In this document: piece by piece, positions 498-29,423 of the stretch
How positions within the stretch are numbered: position 1 is the first letter of the stretch
Layout: the number at the start of each line of letters is the position of its first letter
Source: Acidobacteriaceae bacterium
GTDB taxonomy: Bacteria; Acidobacteriota; Terriglobia; Terriglobales; Acidobacteriaceae
DNA: 36,471 nucleotides
Assembly (NCBI GenBank): GCA_003152695.1
Contig: PMAT01000068.1
Span: 1 to 36,471 of the forward strand
Reading direction: 5' to 3'
Notes under the pieces: model-generated
What the model was told of the DNA's origin: nothing
Databases searched by the model: none
Seen by the model: only the letters and a program-made list of their open reading frames with translations
Position numbers and translations under genes: made by a program

Positions 498-896
498 ATG
501 GAGCGGCAGAATATCTCCGGCAATTCTCCTTACGAGCCGATTGTCGGCTTCTCGCGCGCCGTAAAAGTGGGACCGTTCGTCTGGGTTGCCGGCACGGTCG
601 CAACCGGTCCGGACGGTAAGATCGTCGGAGCGGGCGACGTGTACGCGCAAGCGGTGCAGACGCTGAAGAACATCGGTCGCGCGCTGGAGCAGGCGGGCGC
701 CAGCTTCCGCGACGTGGTGCGCACGCGGATGTTTGTGACCGACATCAGCCAGTGGGAGCAGGCCGGGAAGGCGCATGGCGAGATTTTTCGTGACATCCGC
801 CCGGCGGCCACAATGGTCGAAGTCGCATCGCTGATCGCCCCCGAAATGCTCGTCGAGATCGAAGTGGACGCGATCATCGCCTCGGAGATGAAATGA
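498..896 (+). CDS. RidA/YjgF/Rid family protein (non-canonical, lacks the catalytic Arg)
   Basis: A 132-residue protein of the usual Rid length. The family forms trimers with ligand pockets between subunits; RidA itself hydrolyses reactive enamine/imine intermediates from PLP enzymes. Family signatures visible are [15 protein letters not shown], the helix [20 protein letters not shown], and the final strand [10 protein letters not shown]. The position of E. coli RidA Arg105 (in PARSCVEV) aligns here with PAATMVEV, so the residue needed for imine deamination appears to be Ala. This places it among the Rid subfamilies without demonstrated deaminase activity. The start is set by GGAGG at 486-490, 7 bases before the ATG; the frame is open further upstream but that extension is not Rid-like. 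It is followed after 31 bp by an amidohydrolase, possibly co-transcribed. Confidence 0.88.
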
Positions 897-918
897 GCAA
901 CTAGCAGTTAGCAACTAG
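896..918. repeat. Three tandem 7-bp repeats at the ridA stop codon
   Basis: Units AGCAACT (896-902), AGCAGTT (903-909) and AGCAACT (910-916) follow head to tail, then AG. The first base is the last base of the ridA TGA stop. Stops TGA at 894 and TAG at 902, 909 and 916 together cover all three forward frames. The array ends just before the amidohydrolase Shine-Dalgarno sequence. Confidence 0.7.
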
Positions 919-927
919 AGGAGCACA

Positions 928-2247
928 ATGAAGAATTCCATCTGTAGCATGGTTGTGCTGCTGCTCTCAGTAACCGCAATCGGCCAATCGAATCCCGCTC
1001 AAGTCCCTCAATCGCCGCAGGTCACGGTGATTCGCGCGGGAACCCTCATTGACCCGCGCGCCAACGAACCGAAGCGCAATCAGGTGATTGTGATTCGCGG
1101 CGACAAAATTGAGAGTGTCGGCGACGCCGCTTCCACGCAGGTCCCTGCCGGCGCGAAGATCATTGACTTGTCGAATGCCACCGTGCTGCCCGGCCTGATC
1201 GAATCGCACACGCACATCTTTCTCCAGGGAGAAGACCCGGCGCTCGGCGGCTACGACATTCAGTTGCTGAAGTTCCCGCTCGCCTACCGCGCGGCACGCG
1301 CGACGGTTTCGGCGCGGCGCGCGCTTGAGCAGGGCTTCACCACCATCCGCGACATGGAGACCGAGGGCGCCGGCTACGGCGATGTCGGCATCAAGATGGC
1401 GGTCGAACAGGGGTACATCCCCGGACCGCGCATCTTTACCACCACGCGCGGCATTTCGACGACCGGCGGCTACCCGTTGGAAGGTTACGCGCCGGAGATC
1501 CAGGTGCCCAAGGGAGTTCAGATCATCGACGGTCCGGTGGAGGCACGCAAGGCGGCGCGCGAACAACTGGACCACGGCGCCGACTGGATCAAGGTGTACA
1601 TGACACATCGTTCGTGGGCCGACAAAGATGGCCACCTGGTTTCGCAGCCGACGCTTACGGTGGAAGAGCTGAAAGCGATCGTGGACGAGGCGCACGGTTG
1701 GGGGCGCAAGGTCGCTTGCCACGCCTATAACGGCGAGGGACTGCACCGCGCGCTGGACGGCGGATGCGACTCCATCGAGCACGGGCTTGAGCTTGACGAT
1801 GCGGCCATCGCGCAGATGAAGCGGCAAGGCACCTGGTACTGCCCCACCATCTCGATTTACTACAAGGATTGGTCGCCGGAGAACACGCCCGCAGGGCAAC
1901 GCGACCGCGCGCGAGCCGCTGAACATGAACAGTCTTTCAAGAAGGCGCTGCAGGCTGGGATCAAAATCGTCTTCGGCACCGATGTCGGCGGCTTCCCATG
2001 GACGGAGCCGATTGCGCAGGAATTCCCGTACATGGTGAAGTTCGGCATGTCGCCGATAGAGGCGATCCGCGCGGCGACTGTCAGACCGGCGGAGATGCTC
2101 GGCATGGCCGGACAGATCGGTGTCATCGCGCCTGGAGCCTACGCCGATGTGATCGCTGTGCCGGGCGACCCGCTGAAGGACGTCAGCGAGTTGGGGCAGG
2201 TGAAATTCGTGATGCACAACGGACAGGTGTTTGAAAGCAGCTTTTAG
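928..2247 (+). CDS. Secreted metal-dependent amidohydrolase (imidazolonepropionase-like)
   Basis: A 439-residue protein with an N-terminal signal peptide (hydrophobic MVVLLLSVTAIGQ, cleavage probably near residue 20). It is a TIM-barrel amidohydrolase with the full ligand set of the binuclear subtype: HTH at residues 94-96, Lys222 in WIKVYMTH (probable carboxylated bridge), His265 in ACHAYN, His285 in EHGLEL and Asp352 in GTDVGG. The C-terminal segment with PGAYADVIAVPGDPL is the typical small beta-sandwich of the family. It likely hydrolyses a cyclic amide or dipeptide-type substrate in the periplasm or outside the cell; the substrate cannot be read from sequence. AGGAG about 7 bases upstream supports the ATG. 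The TAG stop lies inside a 7-bp repeat array. Length matches the secreted amidohydrolases common in Acidobacteria. Confidence 0.88.
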   Translation: MKNSICSMVVLLLSVTAIGQSNPAQVPQSPQVTVIRAGTLIDPRANEPKRNQVIVIRGDKIESVGDAASTQVPAGAKIIDLSNATVLPGLIESHTHIFLQGEDPALGGYDIQLLKFPLAYRAARATVSARRALEQGFTTIRDMETEGAGYGDVGIKMAVEQGYIPGPRIFTTTRGISTTGGYPLEGYAPEIQVPKGVQIIDGPVEARKAAREQLDHGADWIKVYMTHRSWADKDGHLVSQPTLTVEELKAIVDEAHGWGRKVACHAYNGEGLHRALDGGCDSIEHGLELDDAAIAQMKRQGTWYCPTISIYYKDWSPENTPAGQRDRARAAEHEQSFKKALQAGIKIVFGTDVGGFPWTEPIAQEFPYMVKFGMSPIEAIRAATVRPAEMLGMAGQIGVIAPGAYADVIAVPGDPLKDVSELGQVKFVMHNGQVFESSF

Positions 2248-2277
2248 CCGTTAGCTCTTAGGTCTTAGCCTTAGCTT
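2244..2277. repeat. 7-bp TTAGNNN tandem array over the amidohydrolase stop
   Basis: Units TTAGCCG (2244), TTAGCTC (2251), TTAGGTC (2258), a 6-base TTAGCC (2265) and TTAGCTT (2271) run in tandem. The first TAG (2245-2247) is the stop codon of the amidohydrolase, and later TAGs at 2252 and 2259 fall in the other two frames. GTTAGCTCTTAG at 2250-2261 is a perfect 12-bp inverted match to 2364-2375. Confidence 0.75.
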
Positions 2278-2362
2278 TTCGCAATTAACGATTAGTATTC
2301 TCGCCGTTCCTTGGTCGCCGCCAGTAGGCGCGGCATAATGCACGCATCTTGCGAATTGTTTT

Positions 2363-2383
2363 GCTAAGAGCTAACTGCTACCT
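2363..2383. repeat. 7-bp tandem array over the PASTA-gene stop, inverted partner of 2244-2277
   Basis: Units GCTAAGA (2363), GCTAACT (2370) and GCTACCT (2377) run in tandem. Read on the minus strand they give TAG at 2380 (the stop of the PASTA gene), 2373 and 2366, one in each frame. CTAAGAGCTAAC at 2364-2375 is the exact reverse complement of 2250-2261. The 85 bp between the arrays shows no gene. Confidence 0.75.
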
Positions 2384-3118
2384 CGTCACTTCCAGGCCAA
2401 TCCCCTGTCCGTCATACACCCTCTGGCCCGCCGCTGGCGTGGTGCGCACTACCGTGCGACTAGGGGAAGCGGGAGCGGCCGCGGAAGTGCTCTCGCCAGG
2501 CGGAGGCGGTTGACTCGCGATGGTGCTCACGTGCAACCCAGCGCCGACAATCGCGTTAACCGCGTCGTCTTCGCCGCGCCCGACGAGGTCGGGCATGACG
2601 AAGGAGTTGCGCTCCTCCGGCGCGGCCAGCAAGACGCTGATCTTCGGTGCGGACACGTTGGTCGCGTTGGCTGGCGGACTCTGCGCCACGATCTGATCGG
2701 TCGGGCCGCCTGGAATGGTTGCGCTGGCGATGCTTCCCAGCTCCAGGCCGCGGCGGCGGATATTGATCTCGGCGGCGCGCTCGCTGCCGCCGATGAGGTT
2801 GGGGATGACCACGCGCTGCGGTCCCATGCTTTCGGCGACGCGGACCCGCCAACCTCGTCGCACCTGCCCTCCCGGCAGAGGCGCTTGTGACATGATCCGG
2901 CCTTCCGCCACGTCGGAACTGAAGAAGCGGTCACCGCGTTCCAGTACCAGCCCATGATCAGCGAGCAGTCGCTCCGCCGGGAGAGGAGCCATGCCAACTA
3001 CTTTGGGGATTGTGGTCTGGCGGCCATGGATGGCAAAGCGCATCGCCGTCAATGCCGACGCCATGAACACCACGATCAGCACCAACACGCGCACGAGATA
3101 GCGAAAGAAGCGGCGCAT
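2378..3118 (-). CDS. Membrane-anchored protein with three PASTA domains
   Basis: A 246-residue protein with a short basic N-terminus, one transmembrane helix (about residues 7-28) and then only PASTA domains: roughly 33-100 (IPKVVGMAPLPAERLL), 104-172 (VVIPNLIGGSERAAEINI) and 176-246 (FVMPDLVGRGEDDAV). PASTA domains bind muropeptides or beta-lactam-like ligands and usually sit at the C-terminus of penicillin-binding proteins or Ser/Thr kinases. Here they form a separate protein with no kinase or transpeptidase domain, facing the periplasm. Its ATG overlaps the stop of the upstream PBP1A-type gene (ATGA), so translation is probably coupled and the two proteins may act together. A Pro/Ser/Ala-rich insert interrupts the third domain (about residues 208-224). 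The stop lies in a 7-bp repeat array. Confidence 0.88.
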   Translation of the reverse strand: MRRFFRYLVRVLVLIVVFMASALTAMRFAIHGRQTTIPKVVGMAPLPAERLLADHGLVLERGDRFFSSDVAEGRIMSQAPLPGGQVRRGWRVRVAESMGPQRVVIPNLIGGSERAAEINIRRRGLELGSIASATIPGGPTDQIVAQSPPANATNVSAPKISVLLAAPEERNSFVMPDLVGRGEDDAVNAIVGAGLHVSTIASQPPPPGESTSAAAPASPSRTVVRTTPAAGQRVYDGQGIGLEVTR

Positions 3119-5549: not shown

Positions 5550-6359
5550 ATGGTCCTCAACGTCCTCAATCTCGGCCTGGTGCCATACGAAACTGCTCTG
5601 CAACTGCAGCGCACACTGATGGAGCTGCGCAAAGCCAGCCGTGTCGAAAATACCCTGCTTTTACTGGAGCATCCTCCGGTGATCACGTTGGGCCGCAATG
5701 CGCAGGTCTCCAACGTGCTTGCTTCGCCCGAGTCCCTGGCCCAGCGCGGGGTGGAGTTGTTCGACATCGACCGCGGCGGCGACGTGACCTTCCACGGCCC
5801 GGGACAACTGGTGGCTTATCCCATCTTCGATTTGCGCAGCTTCGAGCCCAAGCTGGGGGCGGTGGAATTCGTGCGGCGGCTGGAAGAGGTGCTCATCCGC
5901 ACCTGCGGCGACTTCGGCATCGCCACGCAGAGAATCAAAGGACTCACCGGGGTTTGGACTTACGCGCTGCGCAGCAAACCCGAGGCCAAGATCGCGGCGC
6001 TCGGCGTACACATCTCGCGAGGCGTCACCACCCACGGCTTCGCGCTGAACGTGGGCACCGACCTGGATTTCTTCTCGCTCATCGTGCCTTGTGGCCTTAC
6101 CAACAAGCCAGTCACCTCGATGGAGCACGAGTTGCAAAGGAGATTGACGTTGGAAGAAGTGGCGACAGCCGTGTCGCGCAACTTCGGGAGGGTGTTCCAC
6201 TCGCAGATGCTGTGGCTGGAGTCGCTCGACGACCTGCTGGCACAGGCTACCGCGGCAGCGAAGGCTGAACCGGCGGAGTCTCCAGCGAATCAGGACACGC
6301 CTGCGCGGCCTCCGAAGGAGTTGCGCAAGTTGCATGGCAGCGGAGACGAGTTGGCGTAA
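5550..6359 (+). CDS. lipB: Octanoyl-[acyl-carrier-protein]:protein octanoyltransferase (lipoate biosynthesis)
   Basis: LipB transfers octanoyl from acyl carrier protein to a lysine of lipoyl domains, the first step of endogenous lipoylation. The 269-residue protein has the signature RGGDVTFHGPGQLVAYPI (about 75-92), Lys147 in AKIAALGVHIS and the acyl-accepting Cys181 in VPCGLTNKPVTS, matching the Cys/Lys dyad of the family. The catalytic core ends near residue 222; an extra tail of about 45 residues rich in Ala, Pro and Glu follows, longer than in E. coli LipB (213 residues). No strong ribosome-binding site precedes the ATG. The next gene encodes an E1-alpha subunit of a 2-oxoacid dehydrogenase, whose E2 partner would be a lipoyl protein, so the pairing makes metabolic sense. 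No lipA is seen in the window. Confidence 0.94.
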   Translation: MVLNVLNLGLVPYETALQLQRTLMELRKASRVENTLLLLEHPPVITLGRNAQVSNVLASPESLAQRGVELFDIDRGGDVTFHGPGQLVAYPIFDLRSFEPKLGAVEFVRRLEEVLIRTCGDFGIATQRIKGLTGVWTYALRSKPEAKIAALGVHISRGVTTHGFALNVGTDLDFFSLIVPCGLTNKPVTSMEHELQRRLTLEEVATAVSRNFGRVFHSQMLWLESLDDLLAQATAAAKAEPAESPANQDTPARPPKELRKLHGSGDELA

Positions 6360-6415
6360 GATCGCCTGTCGCCCTTGCCTCGCCTGCGGCGTCCGGTTAT
6401 CGTTTCTGGAAACCT

Positions 6416-9410: not shown

Positions 9411-9923
9411 ATGCTGCTCGACCTTGGCGATCTCCGCATTCGTCCCTGGCGCAAGGACGACCTCGACGCGCTGCTGCGCTACGCCAACAATCCTAAGATT
9501 GCATCCAATCTGCGCGATCAGTTCCCTCACCCCTACACCCGGCGCGATGCCATCGATTACCTGGACTTCGTGCGGACGATGGACGTGCCAACTTCGTTCG
9601 CAGTAGAACACGAAGACGAGGCGATCGGCGGCATTGGGTTCAGGCTGGGCACCGACATTGCGCGGCTGAGCGCGGAGATGGGCTACTGGCTTGGCGAGCC
9701 CTTCTGGGGACGCGGCTGGATGACCCGCGCCGTGCAAGCTGCGTCCGAGTGGGCCTTGGACGACTACAAACTAACCCGCGTATTTGCCCAGGTGTTCTCC
9801 CACAATGTGGGATCGATGCGTGTGTTGGAAAAGGCGGGCTTTGAACGCGAAGGGATCATGCGGCGGAGCGCCATCAAGAACGGCGTGGTCCTCGATCAGG
9901 TGCTGTACGCCAAGGTGCGGTAA
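9411..9923 (+). CDS. GNAT family N-acetyltransferase, RimJ/RimL type
   Basis: A 170-residue protein with the RimJ/RimL-like GNAT layout: LRIRPWRKDDLDALLRYANN at the N-terminus, the beta4 segment AEMGYWLGEPFWGRGWMTRA carrying the acetyl-CoA pyrophosphate loop (near G-R-G), and RVFAQVFSHNVGSMRVLEKAGF with the Asn-containing helix followed by EREG. Such enzymes acetylate protein N-termini, amino groups of antibiotics or small amines; the substrate cannot be told. GGAGG at 9395-9399 supports the ATG. It lies 26 bp after frr and probably shares its transcript. Immediately after the stop begins a 7-bp repeat array, and the gene is convergent with the DinB-like gene. Confidence 0.9.
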   Translation: MLLDLGDLRIRPWRKDDLDALLRYANNPKIASNLRDQFPHPYTRRDAIDYLDFVRTMDVPTSFAVEHEDEAIGGIGFRLGTDIARLSAEMGYWLGEPFWGRGWMTRAVQAASEWALDDYKLTRVFAQVFSHNVGSMRVLEKAGFEREGIMRRSAIKNGVVLDQVLYAKVR

Positions 9924-9926
9924 GGC

Positions 9927-9949
9927 AGTTTCGAGTTTCCAGTTTCAAG
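9927..9949. repeat. AGTTTCN 7-bp tandem array after the GNAT stop
   Basis: Units AGTTTCG (9927), AGTTTCC (9934) and AGTTTCA (9941) run in tandem, then AG, starting 3 bases after the GNAT TAA. AGTTTCGAG (9927-9935) and AGTTTCAAG (9941-9949) each have a perfect reverse complement in 10020-10035. Confidence 0.7.
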
Positions 9950-10019
9950 ATTACGGCATAGGGGCGCAAAGATTCACCGCGGGCTTGGTGTCCACCTTTC
10001 TTGTTCCGCGGCGCTTCGG

Positions 10020-10035
10020 CTCGAAACTTGAAACT
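10020..10035. repeat. Inverted partner of the AGTTTCN array
   Basis: The sequence CTCGAAACTTGAAACT contains overlapping reverse complements of AGTTTCGAG and AGTTTCAAG at a 7-bp step. It lies 5 bp before the end of the convergent DinB-like gene. The 70 bp between the two arrays shows no gene. Confidence 0.65.
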
Positions 10036-10040
10036 TCTCC

Positions 10041-10610
10041 TCACTTTCTGCCTGCCGCTTCCACCGAGGTGGTTGGATCGGCGCCCTCCCAGGTCTGGTC
10101 CGACGTTGGTCCGTACACCGAAGGCACTGGCTTGTTCAGCAAGCGCAGATACACCGTAAGCTGCGTGCGGTGATGGCAGGTGTGCAGCACGCGGCGCCAG
10201 AACACCCAGATGCGCTGCCGGGTGAGTCCGAAGAAAGGCACGTCCTGCATCCACCAGTCGGCGGGTTGCGCAGCGAAGAATGCGAGTCGCGGCCGCGCCA
10301 ACTGCTCCTTGCGCTGAATGTAGGCGCTCAGCTCTTTCGTCTTCGGCAGCACGGCGGCGGCGGGCGGTTCGGGCGTGCCCACAAATTCGCCGAAGAACCG
10401 GCGCTCGGAGAGCAGTTCATGGTTCAAGATGTCGGCCACAGTGGACGACTTGGGATGGGGACGAAAGTTCAGGTCCTCTTGCGCGAAGCAACGCCAAACC
10501 GAGATGACCTTGTCGGTCTCGCTGGCGTAGGTGTCCAGCAGATGCTGAAAGAGTGGGTTGCTGGCGCGCGGAACATCCTGCGACGGAATGGCAACGAAGT
10601 CGTAGTGCAT
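10041..10610 (-). CDS. DinB/YfiT-like putative metalloenzyme
   Basis: A 189-residue four-helix-bundle protein of the DinB family. The metal-binding triad is visible as His64 in DILNHELLSERR and His143/His147 in the VLHTCHHRTQL helix (HxxxH), followed by the characteristic LTVYLRLLNKPVPSVYGPTSD. Many members act in thiol-dependent transferase or hydrolase reactions, but most, including this type, have no assigned substrate. The C-terminal sequence SDQTWEGADPTTS is common in acidobacterial members. No signal peptide is present, so a cytoplasmic location is expected. A weak GAGG precedes the ATG. The gene is convergent with the GNAT gene and lies downstream of the secreted hypothetical, separated from it by a hairpin cluster. 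Confidence 0.87.
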   Translation of the reverse strand: MHYDFVAIPSQDVPRASNPLFQHLLDTYASETDKVISVWRCFAQEDLNFRPHPKSSTVADILNHELLSERRFFGEFVGTPEPPAAAVLPKTKELSAYIQRKEQLARPRLAFFAAQPADWWMQDVPFFGLTRQRIWVFWRRVLHTCHHRTQLTVYLRLLNKPVPSVYGPTSDQTWEGADPTTSVEAAGRK

Positions 10611-10643: not shown

Positions 10644-10766
10644 GTCCCCGGGGGACTCGGGTCGATTGGCCACCGTTTCCCACCGCTGAAGCGGTGGGCT
10701 ATCTTATTCCGTCCCGCAGAGCGGGACTGGGTGTGGAAACGACGAAGGGCGCGACTGGCGCGCCCT
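10644..10766. repeat. Cluster of four perfect palindromes (REP-like element)
   Basis: Four inverted repeats follow one another: GTCCCC/GGGGAC (10644-10656), CCCACCGC-TGAA-GCGGTGGG (10679-10698), GTCCCGC-AGA-GCGGGAC (10711-10727) and AGGGCGCG/CGCGCCCT with a 5-base loop (10746-10766). All stems are perfect. The cluster fills the gap between two minus-strand genes. None is followed by a T tract, so intrinsic termination is not the obvious role; the tetraloop-capped short stems resemble dispersed palindromic repeats. Confidence 0.7.
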
Positions 10767-27970: not shown

Positions 27971-27983
27971 ATCGAAGGCGAAA

Positions 27984-28011
27984 AGCGAAGAGCTAAGAGC
28001 GAACAGCGGAA
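27984..28011. repeat. Four tandem 7-bp units overlapping the histidine kinase C-terminus
   Basis: Units AGCGAAG (27984), AGCTAAG (27991), AGCGAAC (27998) and AGCGGAA (28005) are in tandem. On the minus strand the second unit supplies the TAG stop (27995-27993) and the third and fourth encode part of the final residues NSAVRS of the kinase, so the array has entered the reading frame. Confidence 0.75.
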
Positions 28012-29423
28012 TTCTCCAGCGGCACCTCGACCACCATGCGCGTACCTTGCCCGGGCCCGCTTTGCGGAGTAATCGTCCCACCGTAGGCCTCGATCAGCGC
28101 TTTGGAGATGGCGAGACCCAAGCCGTATCCGCCGGTGTTGCGCGCGCGCGAGCTGTCGCCGCGATGAAAACGTTCGAAGAGGTGGGCCAGCTCCGACAGC
28201 GGAATTCCCGGACCGTTATCTTCGACTTCAACATAACCCCGCGGACCATCGGAGCGCGCGCGAAGCTGCACGTTTCCGCCGGCAGGGCTGAAGCGAATGG
28301 CATTCTCCAGCAGGTTGGACCAAACCAGTTCCAGATCGTCGGCATCGGCGCGCATGGGCATCGGACCGTTGCTAACGAAATGGATGGTAATGCCGCGCTC
28401 GCGGGCCACGGGCGCAAGACGCTCCACCGCACTCTCGCAAGTAGCGCTCACCTCCACCGTCTGCAGATCGCGGCGCGCACTGCCCGCTGCCCACTGCTCG
28501 GCACGCGCCAGGCGGAGCATCGAGTGCATCAGTTGTTCCAGCCGCGCCATGTCGTCGAGCGCTTGCTCCAGTCCGGCGCGGTACTCGTCTGCGGCGCGCG
28601 GCCGTTGTAGCAGCGATTGCAGCGTGGACTTCAGGATTGCAACCGGCGTCTTCAACTCGTGAGCGGCATTAGCCAGAAATTCGCGTTGCTGAGTGAAGGC
28701 GCGATGCAGTCCCTCGATCATGGCGGTCATGGCTTGCGTGAGGGGCGCGAGTTCGGTGGTGCTCAAAGCTGCTTCGCTGGGGTTCAACTTCCAGTTTGAG
28801 GCATTGACCAAGGCGGCGCTCGCGGCCAGTTCAGCGAGTGGGCGCAATCCTCGCCGTAAGCCCCAAACCGCAATGCCTACCGTGACCAGCAACAACAGGC
28901 CACTGCCGGCCGCAATATAGATGCCAGCATGTGCGACCGCGCGCGTCATCTGGTCGGTCGGCGCCGCATAGGTCACGGTCAACACATCAGTCGAAGGCGC
29001 ATCGCCTTCGCGATCGAGCACGGGAACTTTCTCCAGTCGTACCGCGCGATAACGAATGTCATTCACTGTAAAGGCGGTGTGTTGCCGGTCCTTCTTGGGG
29101 ATCGCCTGTAAATCCTGCGGCCAATTAGGAGACCGGGCCAGCAAGTGTCCGTCGCCGGTGGTCACCTGGTAAAGATCGGGATGCAGCTTCTCCAGCGGGG
29201 GCGGAACCAGGTCGTCCTCGAAGATCAAGGTGGGATGCTCATCTTCGGAGTAGCGCACCAGCGCGGCGACGCTCATGGCGCGCCCATGCAGGCCGGCGTC
29301 GAATGCGTTGCGTAATTGGCGCCGGGTGAAGTACACCGCCACCGAAACGATGCCGATGGCCAGCAGCAACTGCGAGATCACAACCGCTGCGATCAACCGG
29401 CGCTGAATGGAGGTCTGTCGCAT
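27993..29423 (-). CDS. Sensor histidine kinase of a two-component system
   Basis: A 476-residue membrane kinase. TM1 (about 9-31) and TM2 (about 166-187) flank a periplasmic sensor domain of about 135 residues; HAMP-like region follows; the H-box is FLANAAHELKTPVAILKSTL with His255 as phosphoacceptor. The ATPase domain has LLENAIRFSP (N box), VEDNGPGIP (G1), RFHRGD and GGYGLGLAI (G2). The ligand of the sensor domain is unknown. It lies 1 bp downstream of the regulator stop, so the two are co-translated. The arrangement, divergent from a TolC-adaptor-RND operon, resembles CusRS-like control of efflux. Its last codons and stop lie in a 7-bp repeat array. Confidence 0.92.
   Translation of the reverse strand: MRQTSIQRRLIAAVVISQLLLAIGIVSVAVYFTRRQLRNAFDAGLHGRAMSVAALVRYSEDEHPTLIFEDDLVPPPLEKLHPDLYQVTTGDGHLLARSPNWPQDLQAIPKKDRQHTAFTVNDIRYRAVRLEKVPVLDREGDAPSTDVLTVTYAAPTDQMTRAVAHAGIYIAAGSGLLLLVTVGIAVWGLRRGLRPLAELAASAALVNASNWKLNPSEAALSTTELAPLTQAMTAMIEGLHRAFTQQREFLANAAHELKTPVAILKSTLQSLLQRPRAADEYRAGLEQALDDMARLEQLMHSMLRLARAEQWAAGSARRDLQTVEVSATCESAVERLAPVARERGITIHFVSNGPMPMRADADDLELVWSNLLENAIRFSPAGGNVQLRARSDGPRGYVEVEDNGPGIPLSELAHLFERFHRGDSSRARNTGGYGLGLAISKALIEAYGGTITPQSGPGQGTRMVVEVPLENSAVRS

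Follow-up and report, generated by a model that had tools for sequence, protein, structure and literature searches.

The window analysed here is the whole 36,471-nt stretch of DNA (G000:C13:1-36471) from the draft genome of an Acidobacteriaceae bacterium (G000; 4.50 Mb in 141 contigs). Near its left end an amidohydrolase gene and a gene for a PASTA-domain protein converge, and each ends inside an array of 7-bp units, the two arrays being inverted relative to each other and separated by a short spacer (Table 1). The best units of the left array, which defines the TTAGCNN class, are TTAGCCG, TTAGCTC, TTAGGTC, TTAGCC and TTAGCTT, with one 6-bp step; those of the right array are GCTAAGA, GCTAACT and GCTACCT. 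The arms match perfectly over 12 bp (2250-2261 / 2364-2375) and at 94% over 17 bp (2245-2261 / 2364-2380). A perfect 12-bp inverted repeat with a loop of at least 20 nt was found in one of 3,000 dinucleotide shuffles of the region, and its 7-periodicity was equalled in 2 of 5,000 shuffles. The element is present as a single copy in the host genome. A sequence-only reading of the window had described two inverted 7-bp arrays with a perfect 12-bp match, a convergent gene pair with both stop TAGs inside the arrays, and successive TAGs that fall in every frame of each coding strand. The arrays are borne out to the single base, and the other two descriptions are confirmed in the window: TAGs at 2245, 2252 and 2259 strike frames 0, 1 and 2 of the amidohydrolase gene, and the minus-strand TAGs of the right array cover every frame of the PASTA gene. 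Since the gene calls come from a purpose-made hexamer caller, gene start positions are rough. Among named relatives, the top scores of a penicillin-binding protein encoded nearby belong to Acidobacteriaceae or Acidobacteriota MAGs, several with palsa or bog in their labels, and we place the host there. At gathering scores, an Rfam search of the window and five loci returned only tRNAs and Acido-Lenti-1 RNA, away from the element. The Acido-Lenti-1 RNA (RF01687) lies at 10679-10728 on the plus strand of the window (49.5 bits vs a gathering score of 37), flanked by two minus-strand genes.

Table 1. Genes and heptad arrays of the window, with positions counted from its first letter; G003, G005, G006 and G008 are genomes of congeners.
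Feature	Position	Strand	Remarks
Single related array, AGCAACT units	896..918	+	Begins at the stop codon of a Ribonuc_L-PSP gene; number of units: G000 4, G006 5, G003 5
Amidohydrolase gene (Amidohydro_1)	928..2247	+	C-terminal end ..VFESSF-stop vs ..VFKAE-stop in element-free G006 and G005 (read from DNA)
Left arm, TTAGCNN-class heptad array	2237..2296	+	Best units 2244-2277, degenerate units up to 2296; contains amidohydrolase stop TAG 2245-2247
Spacer	2297..2362		Sole match in the host genome is itself; G008 clearly shares the right end only; missing in G006
Right arm, inverted heptad array	2363..2383	-	GCTANNN units on the plus strand; PASTA stop TAG 2378-2380 (minus strand) within the outer unit
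PASTA-domain protein gene	2378..3118	-	Domain match
Second inverted heptad element, GTTTCRA class	9924..10035		Directly after a stop codon; spacer orientation in G008 opposite to G006 and G000
Single right-arm-type array, GCGAA units	27972..28015	-	Overlaps the stop of minus-strand gene 27993-29423

The feature is one member of a dispersed, genome-wide family of inverted heptad elements with the architecture (7-bp unit)n - short spacer - (reverse complement unit)n. A search of 436 kb of the host genome over periods 4 to 12 recovered 0, 0, 4, 39, 0, 1, 1, 0 and 4 arrays, respectively, and 32 of the 39 period-7 arrays are intergenic, though noncoding DNA makes up 18% of the bases. E. coli K-12 has two period-7 arrays in 200 kb. 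A class-free search for 7-periodicity detected 34 arrays in 400 kb vs 6 in Markov-shuffled sequence. The pattern TTAGNNNTTAGNNNTTAG matches the host genome 64 times (39 forward, 25 reverse) vs 2 for the reversed control, and is found in 11 relatives of a hand-picked set of 14. TTAGCNN triplets are distributed patchily, in 27 of 297 Acidobacteriota genomes; the reversed control for this census is poor, CGATT being an abundant class in other genomes. Several Acidobacteriota genomes that lack TTAGC arrays (G234, G279, G310, G295 and others) carry arrays of that other class, CGATTNN, in great numbers.

About six unit classes can be distinguished: TTAGC, GTTTC, CAGTNNN, TTCGC, TAGTGG and AGGGG. The 39 arrays comprise 16 TTAGC, 9 GTTTC, 5 CAGTNNN, 2 TAGTGG, 1 TTCGC, 1 AGGGG and 5 unclassified arrays, four of the last being intragenic. 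Thirty-one of the 32 intergenic arrays fit five classes under permissive patterns drawn up after the arrays had been seen, and the TTAGC pattern also picks up some TAGTGG arms (G006 and G008 at L058:5503). The last two bases of the TTAGC unit are variable (AA 128, AC 46, AG 40, AT 38, TC 33 and others among 378 units, a sample mostly from stretches selected for TTAGC). Of 228 pairs of adjacent TTAGC units, 55 are identical vs 38 expected; this excess is only small and led us to reject simple slippage of identical units.

The arms were called without regard to complementarity, and neighbouring arms are mostly arranged as inward-facing pairs: summed over five sets, the left-right order occurs 99 times, right-left 4, left-left 18 and right-right 18. 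Left and right labels and class patterns were set after viewing the arrays, which makes this a consistency test and not a prediction. Both arms belong to the same class in 69 of the 99 inward pairs and to different classes in 30. Class agreement is above permutation in all five sets, most weakly in G006: 10/13 in the unbiased G000 set (reached by 1 of 10,000 permutations), 21/29 in the TTAGC-selected G000 set (2), 20/27 in G008 (1), 10/12 in G003 (0) and 8/18 in G006 (183), orthologous arm pairs from different genomes not being independent. Below the class level we compared the arms of 28 pattern-defined elements. Unit-by-unit complementarity beyond class is weak (score 18.3 vs 16.8 in three genomes, 6/10,000 permutations), and is driven by G008 (6/10,000) with no significance in G000 (790/10,000); the longest common substring of the arms is reached in 145/10,000 permutations overall and in 6,878/10,000 in G000. 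Earlier arm tests (0/5,000; 0/10,000) were biased, the elements having been chosen by complementarity and the arms trimmed to match, and are not relied on. Among the 37 spacers of at least 30 nt, 25 have no other match in the compared sequence, and the remaining 12 mostly match an orthologue, heptad arrays elsewhere or a different dispersed repeat. One dispersed repeat, running from TGTCATCCTGAGCG to GAGTCGAAGGA, lies within the spacers of some heptad elements and also elsewhere (L090:4100-4216, L079:7959-8116 and others).

The enrichment near stop codons that the sequence-only reading had proposed as a check is found. Arms that face a stop codon lie within -30..+20 bp of it in 53 of 57 cases, and in 25 of the 57 the stop codon is inside the arm; start-facing arms are equally close in 31 of 55. 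After exclusion of the 3 of 59 elements with a called gene inside them, 45 elements lie between codirectional genes, 6 between convergent and 5 between divergent ones (n=56). The flank on the side of the upstream stop is that short in 42 of the 45 codirectional elements vs 27.9 expected (0/20,000 simulations of random placement in the same gap), an expectation that presumes uniform placement with a 30 bp overhang. Convergent gaps hold 4 of 36 elements in G000 and account for 76 of its 518 intergenic regions. The elements are therefore tied to stop codons and not to convergence, and on these orientation counts we reject a specificity for convergent genes as the common role. Some elements are situated among ribosomal-protein genes. 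On L091, ten genes identified by Pfam follow the operon order SecY, L15, S5, L18, L6, S8, L14, L29, L16, S3, and elements sit between S3 and L16, L16 and L29, and L15 and SecY. All five genomes compared have a recognisable L29/L16 element, a persistence that could reflect selection.

We tabulated the same sites in congeners for 34 intergenic regions from three stretches, orthologous rows being absent where the flanks were not found. At the site of the window element the arms are of the TTAGC class in G000 and G008, with units that differ and spacers that are for the most part unlike, and of the TTCGC class in G003. G006 and G005 have no array, and their two stop codons are only a few bases apart; the two flanking genes of G006 are 93% and 92% identical to those of the host. 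Close relatives thus have this gene pair and no array, an outcome that the sequence-only reading had itself named as refuting it. The TAG that ends the PASTA gene is shared by all five genomes in the alignment. The end of the amidohydrolase gene differs: its stop is the first array TAG in G000 and G008, and TGA and TAA, respectively, in the array-free G006 and G005. Judged from this alignment, the right array is younger than the PASTA stop. The earlier claim that the stop codons are TAGs of the arrays thus stands as to position, but the PASTA TAG was not supplied by its array, as it is present where the gene ends of array-free G006 and G005 can be aligned.

Other sites show similar turnover. 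G000, G006 and G008 share the GTTTC element at window 9923-10040, whose left arm counts about 4, 5 and 11 units, respectively, and whose spacer runs the other way round in G008 (88.6% over 44 nt, opposite strand). L058:5503 is occupied by a pair of TAGTGG arms in G000 and by a pair of AGGGG arms in G003, and the site in G005 is nearly empty. L091:7668 has two CAGTNNN arms in four genomes; in G003 both arms are AGGGG, together with an extra right array. The G005 arms at L091:7105 were seen in one tabulation and not in the other. At window 6359-6415 an element (TTCGC) occurs in G003 only, among the five genomes; inspected by eye, its spacer seems to hold a truncated gene start, with an ATG after a purine-rich stretch, which is perhaps captured DNA. 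In the draft genome G002 the element sites (L113, L228, L229, L230) are N runs or NN joints, and assemblers seem to break or collapse there. This genome was for that reason not used as an empty-site witness; its loci were kept in the count of arm mismatches described below.

Of the alternatives to the DNA-level explanation that we favour below, the one that retains most weight is an RNA hairpin at the 3' end, acting as a terminator, or as a REP-like mRNA stabiliser or translation-coupling element. We nevertheless consider it unlikely. It would fit the hugging of stop codons by 42 of 45 codirectional elements, and three of five folded elements are predicted to be much more stable than shuffles (z -6.0 to -8.2); z values are -2.95 and -2.33 on the two strands of the window element and -1.1 for the element at 9921-10042. 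Comparable repeats of Xanthomonas are, as far as their published description goes, mostly transcribed (PMC4692102). Selection for pairing in RNA should leave more G-U than A-C mismatches on the transcribed strand, since G and U can still form a pair. Across 72 codirectional elements, a set including orthologues from several congeners with exact duplicates removed, we counted 102 G-U vs 98 A-C mismatches (95% bootstrap interval for the share of G-U, 0.45-0.58), next to 138 transversions and 1,742 matches. Convergent (12 vs 12) and divergent elements (17 vs 13) display no bias either. As a positive control, 18 terminator-like stems after open reading frames of E. coli gave 11 G-U vs 2 A-C (p = 0.02), the control being small, counted at equal cost and drawn with a stem finder other than that used for the elements. 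As G-U does not exceed A-C, selection on RNA pairing is not visible. A scan of window 2100-2500 for terminator-like sites (a GC-rich short-loop hairpin followed by a T-run) found none, with 0.4 expected from shuffles. The position of elements inside what is, by gene order, an apparent ribosomal operon counts against terminators, because termination there would be harmful, and the window element is missing from close relatives. The wobble balance, the ribosomal-gene position and the empty terminator scan together speak against a terminator, which we reject as the main function, and against a strongly selected mRNA hairpin; weak RNA effects are still compatible with the data. Of the earlier proposal that a 3'-end hairpin shields convergent transcripts, the capability to form a hairpin is supported, and a common role as shield or terminator is not.

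A second alternative, which we hold to be improbable, is a MITE- or REP-like mobile element whose arms serve as terminal inverted repeats for a transposase acting in trans. REP and BIME elements, associated with RAYT, are likewise intergenic, inverted, dispersed and close to gene ends, and presence or absence at orthologous sites, inverted ends and dispersed copies (the 64 pattern matches vs 2 for the reversed control) would agree with mobility. Against it, the arm sequences vary among copies and classes, and no shared interior was found: 25 of 37 spacers are unmatched elsewhere in the compared sequence, and the window element is single-copy, both of which speak against a MITE-like core. The heptad elements also lack the conserved short palindrome of REP and BIME. 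The Y1_Tnp (RAYT) domain has no match in G000, a draft in which a transposase gene could be missed, and is present in the other 10 of 11 genomes searched; on this ground we discarded a RAYT/REP origin. A still poorer candidate is an array of DNA sites, placed symmetrically on both sides of the spacer, that a protein would bind in steps of 7 bp: the strict period, the conserved 5-base core with two variable bases and the inward symmetry would suit such binding, but several different cores occur within one genome, and classes are swapped at the same site between congeners.

The all-frame translation stop for read-through ribosomes proposed by the sequence-only reading is the least credible explanation, with hardly any weight left, and is contradicted as a role shared by the whole family, because classes without stops occupy the same position at stop codons: stops in all three frames, as in the window, characterise 26 of 35 stop-facing TTAGC arms, and the stop codon of the gene lies within the arm in 25 of all 57 stop-facing arms, but no inward stop exists in 5/5 GTTTC and 4/5 TTCGC stop-facing arms, 0/7 CAGTNNN arms have stops in all three frames, the array at the PASTA stop is younger than that stop, and 55 arms face start codons. 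The classes in question lie as close to the stop codon (within -30..+20 bp: TTCGC 5/5, GTTTC 5/6, CAGTNNN 7/7, with slightly different class calling).

The explanation that we favour, with modest confidence, is that these are DNA-level slippage-and-exchange elements tolerated at gene ends. Replication slippage by 7 nt would enlarge the arrays. DNA exchange, either by template switching or conversion in the hairpin or by recombination between the inverted arms, would hold both arms in one class, and recombination between the arms would also flip the spacer. Selection would purge insertions from coding and promoter DNA, so that what remains is the stretch past the stop codon and before the next promoter. 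The stop codons of TTAGC arms would be a by-product, and any RNA effect secondary. A polymerase-linked preference for slippage by 7 nt has been proposed by Mrazek (as cited in PMC4679880 and PMC4692102). The observed basis for this explanation consists of the exact period, the mostly shared class of the arms, the turnover at fixed sites and one spacer inversion. It leaves unexplained the small repertoire of classes and the spread of classes to new sites. Slippage alone predicts random 7-mers, yet 31 of 32 intergenic arrays fit five classes, so something must restrict or disperse the units. The weak complementarity below class, the 30 of 99 class-discordant pairs and the persistence of the L29/L16 element also argue against slippage and exchange, processes that we infer from their products, and our preference remains only somewhat better than even.

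The cyanobacterial STRR are 7-bp repeats located between genes, and were named as the nearest known analogue by the sequence-only reading. The comparison is apt: STRR are described as capable of forming hairpins (PMC2670836), and CAGTNNN arrays are present both in the host genome and in cyanobacterial plasmids, though the window element itself is of the TTAGCNN class. From what is described of STRR, the likeness lies in the intergenic 7-bp units and the hairpin capability, and the difference in the repertoire of classes. A CAGTNNN query against plasmid records gave 13 matches (8 in Pantoea, 2 in Microcystis and 1 each in Euhalothece, Nostoc and Escherichia). The plasmid of Nostoc sp. UHCC 0870 carries six arrays in the order L R L L R R, with inward pairs and one back-to-back junction; the Microcystis and Pantoea arrays examined are unpaired. 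A plasmid of Pantoea ananatis (L232:5993-6105) has a long direct CAGTTGC heptad array between repB and parA/parB, with no inverted partner.

The closest known kind is the inverted heptamer repeats of Xanthomonas, followed by STRR and the TAACTGA repeats. According to the published account, the GGGAATC repeats of Xanthomonas and the GGGGA(C/T)T repeats of Nostoc PCC 7120 are intergenic 7-bp units, mostly in fours (Rehm et al. 2015, PMC4692102). In Xanthomonas, 70 (Xcc) and 75 (Xac) inward-facing inverted pairs are listed, with arrays near stop codons on the sense strand and ahead of open reading frames on the antisense strand; in Nostoc PCC 7120 only few arrays are paired (PMC4692102). The same account describes extensive variation in length and sequence among relatives and G-quadruplex formation by the heptamer oligonucleotides, and reports no function in its treatment of the repeats (PMC4692102). 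As far as these descriptions reach, the host arrays have in common with them the tandem intergenic 7-bp units (32/39), the inward pairs (99) and the proximity to stop codons (53/57). Unlike the G-rich Xanthomonas class, they occur in Acidobacteriota and fall into about six classes, mostly without G-tracts, that are swapped between congeners at one site. By inspection, G-tracts of three are missing from the TTAGCNN, GTTTC, CAGTNNN and TTCGC units and present in AGGGG.

The TAACTGA repeats of Beggiatoaceae, Cyanobacteria and Bacteroidetes are described as intergenic heptamers, mostly ahead of start codons (MacGregor 2015, PMC4679880). Some Bacteroidetes relatives have shorter intergenic regions without the repeats, related heptamers are rarely repeated, and a translational regulation is suggested there (PMC4679880). 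TAACTGA corresponds to the right arm of the host's CAGTNNN class. Its arrays are direct, with one inverted case in BOGUAY among those described (PMC4679880), whereas the host arrays are mostly inward pairs. We found no report of such repeats from Acidobacteriota among the open-access papers listed, a collection that takes in few subscription papers. The multi-class variant that is not G-rich is new; the underlying kind of heptamer repeat is known but unexplained.

Bacterial heptamer repeats represent an unexplained over-representation that has so far been discussed in terms of G-quadruplexes, phase-variation tracts and translational signals. In the family described here, geometry can be separated from sequence, because several classes that are not G-rich share the geometry and the place at stop codons, and relatives differ in class or lack the arrays. 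More speculatively, inverted heptad arrays at the boundaries of genes might be written and rewritten by one process common to several phyla, with an exact 7-nt step, few interchangeable classes and exchange between arms at the DNA level, of which G-quadruplexes, stops and RNA hairpins would be by-products; behind it could stand a habit of a polymerase or an enzyme that acts by templating, in either case undescribed, a conjecture that we offer tentatively and expect rather to fail than to hold. The class-independent geometry tells against stop codons, quadruplexes and RNA hairpins as general explanations, and a DNA-level origin of heptamer repeats becomes testable.
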